37,189 nucleotides of DNA. Source: Nitrososphaera sp. AFS (lineage in GTDB: Archaea; Thermoproteota; Nitrososphaeria; Nitrososphaerales; Nitrososphaeraceae). Of the stretch, positions 10,836 through 16,425 are shown piece after piece. Both the position numbers and the translations under genes were made by a program. Position 1 is the first letter of the stretch; every line of letters starts with the position of its first letter. Under the pieces are notes generated by a model. That model searched no databases. It saw only the letters and a program-made list of their open reading frames with translations, and was not told where the DNA came from. The DNA lies in NCBI RefSeq assembly GCF_009898475.1, contig NZ_QURE01000008.1, positions 34,004-71,192 of the forward strand, written 5' to 3'.

Positions 10836-11135
10836 AGACAGGGTCCATTAGTGGCTGACGTACGATAAAGAGGCTCACAGAGCGGAAGCTTATTCCAACT
10901 TTTCTCAAATTGGAGGTCAAAGGCTGCTCGAATTTTGTAGTTATGTTTGTACTAATCGCTTTTCTATCAATATCATTCAGACCCACAACACACTCTCCAA
11001 TGTACATGCCAGGCCAAATTTTATAGAATTATCCACATAGACGGTCCAAACAAGTATCAAAATGAATTTCCCATTGCCTGTCGAGATTGCAAGAACCATT
11101 TTTAAGAAATATCGATGCGGTCACCGGGATTTGAA

Positions 11136-11163
11136 CTCCCGCTCTACCTTATAAAAGTAAAGT
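11136..11163 (-). other. Intron 2 of tRNA-Gly(TCC), 28 nt, position 53/54 in the T arm
   Basis: The inner helix CTTTAC/GTAGAG closes a 9-nt loop. The central 4-bp helix is exon CCCG with intron CGGG. Bulges GGA and AGT are cut after the second base. The outer helix is weak, so this is a relaxed bulge-helix-bulge. Removal rebuilds a perfect 5-bp T stem. Confidence 0.75.
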
Positions 11164-11178
11164 CCCGGGTTACGGGCT

Positions 11179-11206
11179 AGCCTCGTATTCACAGATCGGA
11201 GATACT
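11179..11206 (-). other. Intron 1 of tRNA-Gly(TCC), 28 nt, position 37/38
   Basis: It forms a textbook bulge-helix-bulge. The central 4-bp helix is exon CTTC with intron GAGG. The 3-nt bulges are CAA and CTA, each cut after the second base. The inner intron helix is GTAT/ATAC. The outer helix is the anticodon stem. Confidence 0.8.
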
Positions 11207-11314
11207 TGGAAGGCCAGTGTCCTAACCAAACTAGACGATGACCGCATTTGTGCATCGATATAGCGAGAAGACCTAGATATTAAATCTTAGCGATTTGAGC
11301 GGTAGAAAGTATAT

Positions 11315-11884
11315 TCACTGTTTTTCGCGGAATATGTAATTTAGAAGCATGTCAACTGCTTTACTTTTTGCCCTTTTTTTATAGTATTTTGAATTTTTTC
11401 TGGGAGCCTCCAATATCTTTTCTTGTTCGACAACTTCAATAGATCTGTCGTCCGGTGCACCATCAAATTGAACTCGATATCCTTTAAGCTTTGATTCTAC
11501 TAGGGAGTCGTAAATATCTCTAAGCCAGAAAGGGCATATAAAGTACATGTGGGGCGGGTTAGCCCTGGGTTTAATCATACGTATAGCTAAATCGAAAATC
11601 TCTGAGATATTCTTTGGGCCTGAATCAATTCTGATTGTATCTTGGTCAACACCTTCTTGGATTAATACATCTCTCGCCAATTTCCCGACATCCAAGGTTG
11701 AAATGATGACTACTCTGGTGTCGTTTTTGTCTGGTTTTGAACTTTTAATAAGTTTGATTGTGTTTAGGCAGGTCTTCACTCGCTCATGAATATGTATAGG
11801 TAGATGTTGCGCCTCTGAATCTTTGGTTCTCTGATTGGCGTAAAGCATAATCAGATTTCCCTCGGTGAATTTTTCCTCCGACAT
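11315..11884 (-). CDS. DUF218-like (YdcF/SanA-type) protein, tentative
   Basis: 189 residues, soluble, no signal peptide. The middle part, RVVIISTLDVGKLARDVLIQ, then GVDQDTIRID and KNISEIFDLA, follows the order seen in DUF218 proteins: a Rossmann-like strand, a helix, then a residue set before an N-x-x-E helix. A strand-rich MYFICPFWLRDIYD and a basic C-terminal tail (KNSKYYKKRAKSK) follow. Most bacterial DUF218 proteins are membrane-linked envelope proteins, and this one has no membrane helix, so a different role is likely. It lies beside the intron-containing tRNA-Gly on the same strand, 69 nt upstream. Function unknown. Confidence 0.55.
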   Translation of the reverse strand: MSEEKFTEGNLIMLYANQRTKDSEAQHLPIHIHERVKTCLNTIKLIKSSKPDKNDTRVVIISTLDVGKLARDVLIQEGVDQDTIRIDSGPKNISEIFDLAIRMIKPRANPPHMYFICPFWLRDIYDSLVESKLKGYRVQFDGAPDDRSIEVVEQEKILEAPRKNSKYYKKRAKSKAVDMLLNYIFREKQ

Positions 11885-14533: not shown

Positions 14534-16009
14534 ATGAGCGATTTAGTGACCAGAATTGGCAATCATAAGGTCACCAAGATCAATGATTTTGAGTTTAGGG
14601 TTGAAATGGATCGCTCTAAGGGCATGAATGTACCAGTGACGATCTATGCAAATGATGATCTCATTTCTAAAATGATAACTGATCGAACCATCCATCAAGC
14701 TACAAATGTTTCTACATTACCAGGCGCAAAAAAACATGTTGTTGTCCTTCCTGACGGACATGAAGGATATGGATTTCCAGTTGGAGGGGTAGCTGCTACA
14801 GATGCACAGGAGGGTGTAATTAGCCCTGGTGGCGTGGGATATGATATAAACTGCGGTGTGAGGTTGATTAGGACAGGTCTTTCAGAAAGGGATCTAAAAC
14901 CTAGACTAAAGGAATTAGTAAATGAACTCTTCAAATCTATACCATCAGGGGTAGGGAGCTCTGGCAAAATTAAGCTGACCAAAGCAGAACTTGATGACCT
15001 ACTTGTTGAAGGCATCGACTGGGCAATACAAAAAGGATATGGTTGGGAACAGGACGCCGATATGTGCGAAGAGCGAGGAAGGATGAAAGGCGCTAATACT
15101 GAATGTATTTCAGAAACCGCAAGAAAGCGTGGAGCGCCACAATTAGGAAGTCTAGGATCTGGAAATCACTTTCTCGAAATCCAGAAGGTTGACAAAATTT
15201 TCGACGAAAAGGCTGCTAGAACAATGGGTATTAATGGCGAAGGACAATTGACTATTTTGATTCATTGCGGATCAAGAGGCTTAGGTCATCAAGTCTGCAG
15301 TGACTATCTGCGCATTTCAGAGATCGCTTTGAAAAAATATGGGACCGAGTTGGTCGATAGGGAACTCGCTTGTGTGCCTAACCAATCAAAAGAGGGAGAG
15401 AACTATAGAAGTGCCATGAGTTCTGCCCTAAACTTTGCATGGTGTAATCGAGAAATGATAACCCATTGGACTAGGATGACGTTCGAAAGAGTCTTTGGGA
15501 TGAGTGAACAACAAATGGACATGGGACTTGTATATGATGTTGCCCATAACATAGCCAAGCTGGAACGATATCGAATCGACGGAGAAGGGACGCGAGACCT
15601 GATAATTCATCGAAAAGGTGCTACTAGAGCGTTCCCAGCTGGTATGGATGAAGTTCCGATAAAGTATCGTAACATAGGGCAGCCTGTAATTATTCCTGGT
15701 TCCATGGGAACTGCTAGCTGGATATTGTTGGGCAATAAAAAATCTCTTGAATTGAGTTTTGGATCCACTGCACATGGCGCGGGTAGAATGATCTCAAGAT
15801 CTGCGGCAAAGAGAAACAATACAGCTGAGCAAGTTAGGTCGGTTCTAGAGTCTAAGGGCATTTATGTCAAAGCATTAACAAACGAAGGATTAATTGAGGA
15901 AACACCTAATGCATATAAGGATGTGGATAAGGTAGCAGAAGTCTCTGATACCCTTGGAATCGCGACTAAAGTAGCAAGATTAGTTCCTTTGGGAGTGATA
16001 AAAGGATAG
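14534..16009 (+). CDS. rtcB: RNA-splicing ligase RtcB
   Basis: 491 residues. RtcB seals 2',3'-cyclic phosphate or 3'-phosphate ends to 5'-OH ends with GTP and Mn2+; in archaea it joins tRNA exons after the splicing endonuclease cuts. Visible motifs: GGVGYDINCGVRL (Asp and Cys metal ligands), GSLGSGNHFLEIQ, HCGSRGLGHQ, HRKGATRAFPAG and STAHGAGR with the guanylylated histidine. No intein is present, although RtcB is a common intein host. TATAACG lies about 30 nt upstream, and AAAGGA precedes the ATG. The PDCD5-like gene overlaps its stop by one base, so they form an operon. The tRNA-Gly with two introns nearby is an obvious substrate. Confidence 0.96.
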   Translation: MSDLVTRIGNHKVTKINDFEFRVEMDRSKGMNVPVTIYANDDLISKMITDRTIHQATNVSTLPGAKKHVVVLPDGHEGYGFPVGGVAATDAQEGVISPGGVGYDINCGVRLIRTGLSERDLKPRLKELVNELFKSIPSGVGSSGKIKLTKAELDDLLVEGIDWAIQKGYGWEQDADMCEERGRMKGANTECISETARKRGAPQLGSLGSGNHFLEIQKVDKIFDEKAARTMGINGEGQLTILIHCGSRGLGHQVCSDYLRISEIALKKYGTELVDRELACVPNQSKEGENYRSAMSSALNFAWCNREMITHWTRMTFERVFGMSEQQMDMGLVYDVAHNIAKLERYRIDGEGTRDLIIHRKGATRAFPAGMDEVPIKYRNIGQPVIIPGSMGTASWILLGNKKSLELSFGSTAHGAGRMISRSAAKRNNTAEQVRSVLESKGIYVKALTNEGLIEETPNAYKDVDKVAEVSDTLGIATKVARLVPLGVIKG

Positions 16010-16425
16010 TGTCTGAGGCAGAGGATCCGGATATTACCATCATCAAGGCCAGGAAGCTGAAGGAATTGCAGAAAATAGCTGCGATACAAGAAAAGTTGAA
16101 ATCAAGGAATCAAAAGGATACCATGCCTAAAACGAATAGAGAAATCGTATCTGTATACCTTTATGATAGAGGGGACGAAGTGTTAGCTCTAGCTGAGACT
16201 CAATTTCCGATTCAAACCAGAGCAATAGTAGACAAAATAGCGGAAATAATAAGATTAGGGGAGATTAATCAGAAAATATCAGGCGGAGAATTGTTAGCAC
16301 TCTTCCGTTCTGTCGGTATCAATATAAGGCTGAATACAAGCATTAGAGTCGAAGATCATGGTAAATTGGTGTCCTTCTCAGATAAATTGAAATACGAAAA
16401 CGAGGACAGTTCTGCTAAGGCATGA
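16009..16425 (+). CDS. PDCD5/TFAR19-like DNA-binding protein
   Basis: 138 residues, starting with GTG at the last base of the rtcB stop and preceded by AAAGGA. A charged N-terminal helix (ITIIKARKLKELQKIAAIQE) is followed by a compact helical core containing YLYDRGDEVLALAETQFP. The C-terminal part (GGELLALFRSVGI, then RVEDHGKLVSFSDKL) corresponds to the last section of archaeal PDCD5 homologues, usually 110-120 residues. This copy has a longer N-terminus and an acidic tail. Archaeal PDCD5 proteins bind DNA weakly and are often found beside translation or RNA genes. Assignment rests on pattern similarity only, so it is good but not certain. Confidence 0.75.
   Translation: MSEAEDPDITIIKARKLKELQKIAAIQEKLKSRNQKDTMPKTNREIVSVYLYDRGDEVLALAETQFPIQTRAIVDKIAEIIRLGEINQKISGGELLALFRSVGINIRLNTSIRVEDHGKLVSFSDKLKYENEDSSAKA

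Follow-up and report, generated by a model that had tools for sequence, protein, structure and literature searches.

A tRNA-Gly(UCC) gene of Nitrososphaera sp. AFS with two introns, one of them a T-arm intron shared by most Nitrososphaeraceae

The tRNA-Gly(UCC) gene of Nitrososphaera sp. AFS is made up of three exons separated by two introns of 28 nt each, one at the canonical position 37/38 and the other within the T arm, at 53/54; the latter was found in most orthologous loci of the family Nitrososphaeraceae. Judged from its sequence and that of its relatives, this two-intron gene is real and in all likelihood functional. It is highly probable that its precursor is cut at both introns by the tRNA-splicing endonuclease EndA and that the exons are joined by the ligase RtcB. 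The gene lies in the window, the whole stretch of 37,189 nt analyzed here, which corresponds to positions 34004-71192 of contig 63 in a 154-contig assembly that is 89.6% complete.

The tRNA part of the gene covers 130 nt on the minus strand (11245-11116). The exon and intron limits were read by hand and then checked with ARAGORN on the spliced forms, and the coordinates given in an earlier note on this DNA for the gene and for the 28-nt inserts at 37/38 and 53/54 turned out to be correct to the base. Exon 1 (11207..11245, minus strand, 39 nt, positions 1-37) comprises the 5′ strand of the acceptor stem, the D arm, and the anticodon UCC. It is followed on the same strand by intron 1 at 37/38 (11179..11206), exon 2 from A38 to G53 (11164..11178, 15 nt, AGCCCGUAACCCGGG), intron 2 at 53/54 (11136..11163), and exon 3 from T54 to the discriminator base A73 (11116..11135, 20 nt, UUCAAAUCCCGGUGACCGCA), with CCA not encoded. 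After removal of both introns the cloverleaf is intact, with 7/7 pairs in the acceptor stem, 4/4 in the D stem (one G-U), 4/5 in the anticodon stem, where U28-C42 is the sole mismatch, and 5/5 in the T stem; the anticodon is TCC and T33 is present. The perfect acceptor stem and the good D arm noted before were thus recovered.

ARAGORN recognized a tRNA-Gly(tcc) in the doubly spliced 74-mer only, and neither in the precursor nor in either of the singly spliced forms, in agreement with the previous observation that the T arm becomes continuous only after removal of 11136-11163. In the default mode the program missed the gene in the window. In the intron mode it reported a tRNA-Gly(tcc) with one 36-nt intron, which is incorrect. 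A one-intron splicing script did not resolve the gene, as expected for a gene with two introns. The Rfam tRNA model aligned to the precursor gene over the full length with two long gaps and gave 26.4 bits; the inserts keep this score under the gathering threshold of 29. The single match of the inserts to another Rfam family (WT1-AS_7, E 2.1) was judged to be a chance hit.

As the earlier note had proposed, the gene was compared with its orthologs. A search of 70 Nitrososphaeraceae genomes for the 5′ half of tRNA-Gly(UCC), extended by genomes that were first missed, yielded 63 loci. Every one of the 59 tabulated loci splices to 74 or 75 nt, and four further loci were read by eye. Exon 1 is identical or near-identical in the 62 other family loci, and the exons overall are nearly invariant. 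All loci but one (62 of 63) carry the 37/38 intron; in the exception, L107, CTTCCA runs straight into AGCCCG. The T-arm intron, 19-33 nt in length, is present in 52 of the 63 loci from at least 11 genera, and it is precisely absent in 11 loci, all from a single genus (g6, to which records named Nitrososphaera belong), where CCCGGG is directly followed by TTCAAATCCCGG. In the sister family, identified as Nitrosopumilaceae by inference, 23 orthologs carry neither intron and have almost the same 74-nt sequence; one ortholog of this type (L154) scored 63.7 bits with the Rfam tRNA model versus 26.4 bits for the gene in the window. These 23 intron-free genes, the 11 loci free of the T-arm intron, and L107 together fix the boundaries. 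The T-arm intron ends with GGGAA in most species, so that only a cut at 53/54 restores the G53-C61 pair; the copy in the window ends with GGGAG, for which a shift by one base would be possible were the comparison left aside.

In a metagenome-assembled genome (MAG) of Nitrososphaera sp. (G029, L107/L247), the T-arm intron is kept and the 37/38 intron is precisely absent, the reverse of the situation in the neighbors of the same genus. A second copy with a T-arm intron of the Nitrosocosmicus type (L220, JANWKP010000158.1:20-75) was found at a contig edge in the genome of another genus (G059), where it probably represents contamination of the MAG.

The earlier note had described both inserts as bulge-helix-bulge (BHB) motifs with 4-bp central helices (CTTC/GAGG and CCCG/CGGG). 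Both central helices were found, and the description holds in full for intron 1, whereas intron 2 forms only a relaxed motif that lacks the outer helix. Intron 1 has the strict canonical form, with the 4-bp central helix CTTC/GAGG, the 3-nt bulges CA^A and CT^A, and helices on both sides (outer GGC/GCC with 3 bp, inner GUAU/AUAC). Intron 2 has the central helix CCCG/CGGG, the 3-nt bulges GG^A and AG^T, and the inner helix CUUUAC/GUAGAG; the exon side has no helix beyond one A-U pair, for which reason it was classed as relaxed. In keeping with that class, its removal restores the tRNA precisely, and its presence or absence among relatives concerns the same phosphate. The equal length of the two introns, which had been considered curious, is a coincidence, since it occurs in only 4 of the 47 loci that carry both. 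That one intron arose from the other by copying within the gene appears unlikely, as the orthologous introns have no obvious likeness and vary in length independently.

Among the 42 distinct T-arm introns from the Nitrososphaeraceae, the central helix CCCG/CGGG is invariant, and the first five pairs of the inner helix are formed in 198 of 210 cells. When the partners were shuffled 1000 times, the paired cells averaged 172 and never exceeded 183; the significance of this difference is somewhat overstated because the sequences are related. Covariation was evident at pair 2 (C-G, U-A, and U-G), pair 3 (U-A and C-G), and pair 5 (A-U and G-C), where these pairs interchange. Given the 52 orthologous loci, the covarying helix, and the precise intron-free versions in relatives, we judge that the insert at 53/54 is not a product of chance.

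These data also bear on whether the gene might be a decaying pseudogene, disrupted by a short insert within its T arm, with another Gly(UCC) gene doing the work. The unspliced gene indeed falls below the Rfam tRNA threshold, and the assembly is incomplete, but an insert with conserved boundaries and a covarying helix in 52 loci from at least 11 genera, set between nearly invariant exons, is at odds with decay. A second, intact tRNA-Gly(UCC), which the earlier note had raised as a reason to doubt the present copy, was not found in the 89.6% complete assembly, where 11245-11116 was the only copy detected, and in almost every relative a single tRNA-Gly(UCC) locus was found. The pseudogene was rejected on the grounds of conservation and covariation and is very improbable, and the intron-containing functional gene is retained.

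Folding of the naked RNA around intron 2 gave mean energies of -11.7 kcal/mol for the BHB form, -13.3 kcal/mol for a decoy T arm, and -15.1 kcal/mol for a fold in which the native T stem encloses the intron. The 3′ end of the T-arm intron, CGGGA, can pair either with the upstream exon (splicing form) or with the downstream strand of the T stem (decoy) in 52/52 loci. In a fair comparison the decoy, CGGGA-(7 nt)-UCCCG, was better than the BHB form by 1.1 to 4.6 kcal/mol, again in 52/52 loci; another folding run gave a larger gap, into which a hairpin further upstream, in competition with the anticodon stem, also enters. The decoy largely follows from the self-complementarity of CCCGGG, and the fold preference of the naked precursor is not taken as evidence of a switch.

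We considered whether the T-arm intron might be retained because it serves a separate function, either by disrupting the 3′ part of the gene, where tyrosine recombinases of mobile elements find their attachment site, or by delaying correct T-arm formation until splicing. Its persistent retention across the family and the competing structures that the unspliced T arm can form in 52/52 loci would fit such a function. So would the proposal that introns and split genes protect against integration (Randau and Soll, as discussed in PMC3218864) and the finding that over half of the thaumarchaeal attB sites lie in tRNA genes (PMC8371274, citing Krupovic 2019). However, thaumarchaeal elements also integrate into intron-containing tRNA genes (PMC8371274), the 11 loci without the T-arm intron show no evident cost, inertia also predicts retention, and the decoy T arm is a near-automatic consequence of CCCGGG. 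We consider it quite unlikely that the intron has such a function and is under selection in the Nitrososphaeraceae as an integration barrier, or as a fold switch by which the T arm is right only after splicing.

Components that would act in the removal of both introns are encoded in the genome. EndA (199 aa, G000:C56) can be aligned from end to end with the catalytic subunits from crenarchaea, including the Tyr/His/Lys motifs of a catalytic α subunit. It contains the crenarchaea-specific loop (GYFGKPLGISKPKG), the role of which in EndA has been described (PMC6379350), with the loop lysine, K54, aligned to K44 of the A. pernix enzyme in 3p1z. Of 15 related genomes, 13 encode a second EndA paralog that lacks the catalytic His and Lys, as would be expected for a β subunit; G024 from the same genus is among them. 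No β subunit was found in the 89.6% complete assembly to which the window belongs. An α2β2 EndA has been assigned to Thaumarchaeota in a review (PMC4090602). A heteromeric endonuclease able to handle relaxed motifs, as the earlier note had called for, fits these findings. The RtcB tRNA-splicing ligase, the expected exon joiner, is encoded 3 kb from the tRNA gene (14534..16009, plus strand; Pfam PF01139, 568.8 bits). The rtcB gene is followed, with an overlap of one base, by a gene for a dsDNA_bind protein (PDCD5/TFAR19-like; both in 14534-16425), and the two possibly form an operon.

In the proposed sequence of events, the gene would be transcribed to a precursor containing the 130-nt tRNA part, and a broad-specificity EndA with the expected (αβ)2 composition would release both introns by cutting behind the second base of every 3-nt bulge. 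The exons of 39, 15, and 20 nt would then be joined by RtcB to a 74-nt tRNA that, once charged, would read the glycine codon GGA. In five genes of the window GGA is the most common glycine codon (87 of 225).

Of 350 genomes of the class, 41 matched the exact intron-bearing T-arm pattern, every one of them from the Nitrososphaeraceae; among 84,980 prokaryote species, 43 stretches did so. Thus, no T-arm intron was found outside the Nitrososphaeraceae in these two sets by this strict pattern, which a diverged T-arm intron would escape. As an orthology marker we used the conserved upstream neighbor, an ORF of 189 aa (11315..11884, minus strand), which had no match in a Pfam search. It adjoins tRNA-Gly(UCC) in most family loci with enough flanking sequence, which supports the orthology of the loci; a protein-based scan of the genome contigs for this ORF gave no match.

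In a tree of the neighbor protein, the intron-free loci are nested within the family, with at least two state changes on supported branches. The gain of the T-arm intron at 53/54 probably postdates the split of Nitrososphaeraceae and Nitrosopumilaceae, and the intron was probably later lost, and possibly regained, within the single genus Nitrososphaera. A specific version of this history, with a loss in the ancestor of Nitrososphaera and a subsequent regain in one clade, e.g., by intron transfer, as opposed to one or several losses, draws on the position of the intron-bearing clade (G025, G028, G029, and G042), which is nested among intron-free genomes and forces two changes. The topology with all intron-free loci in one clade, i.e., a single loss, was not rejected (p-AU 0.147), however, and the tree is based on one short protein, so we regard regain as conceivable but improbable. 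It is compatible with a functional, doubly spliced tRNA-Gly(UCC) and concerns the origin of the intron alone.

Introns outside 37/38 are also apparent in other tRNA genes of the genome. About seven further tRNAs (Asp, Phe, Asn, Pro-GGG, Arg-CCT, Arg-CCG, and Glu; loci L013, L018, L022, L024, L025, L028, and L031) fit such introns by simple splicing scores, several of them in the D loop, and the T arm is uninterrupted in all seven. Two Gln-like genes (L032, G000:C34:14551-14909, and L027, G000:C153:37711-38067) have apparent introns in the D region, and the one-intron script fails on both; L032 probably contains more than one intron. A further tRNA-like locus (L030, G000:C25:13344-13691, minus strand) has the anticodon loop CTCATAA (CAT), a good T arm, and the 3′ acceptor strand CTCCGGC; no matching 5′ acceptor strand was found within 120 nt upstream, and the locus may represent the remnant of an attachment site, a split tRNA, or a gene with an intron near its 5′ end.

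The loci compared here form a natural series of gain and loss for one gene, with no introns (Nitrosopumilaceae), only the canonical intron, only the T-arm intron, or both, and it includes archaea of which some have complete genomes. They show the reason why simple tRNA finders miss or under-score tRNA-Gly(UCC), and they provide substrates for testing a thaumarchaeal endonuclease on a motif without an outer helix. A paper describing the family-wide T-arm intron of tRNA-Gly(UCC) was not found in the open literature; GtRNAdb, which lay outside that search, probably lists the gene.

Position 53/54 itself is already among the archaeal tRNA intron positions listed by Sugahara et al. (reviewed in PMC4090602). 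The present intron resembles those introns in its insertion point, the relaxed BHB motif, the occurrence of several introns per gene, and the broad-specificity endonuclease expected to remove it. Noncanonical introns in archaea are best documented in Crenarchaeota, whereas the present case is a single orthologous intron conserved across a family of Thaumarchaeota. In the same phylum, 107 noncanonical tRNA introns were counted for Thaumarchaeota and modeled in tRNAscan-SE 2.0, and the available part of that paper (PMC8450103) does not point to a T-arm intron in tRNA-Gly(UCC) that extends through a family. In Caldiarchaeum subterraneum, which belongs to another archaeal lineage, tRNA introns have been reported in the D, V, and T arms (PMC3293823), a likeness by description to the T-arm intron found here. 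The position is known; the comparison adds the conservation of the T-arm intron of tRNA-Gly(UCC) through nearly the whole of the Nitrososphaeraceae.
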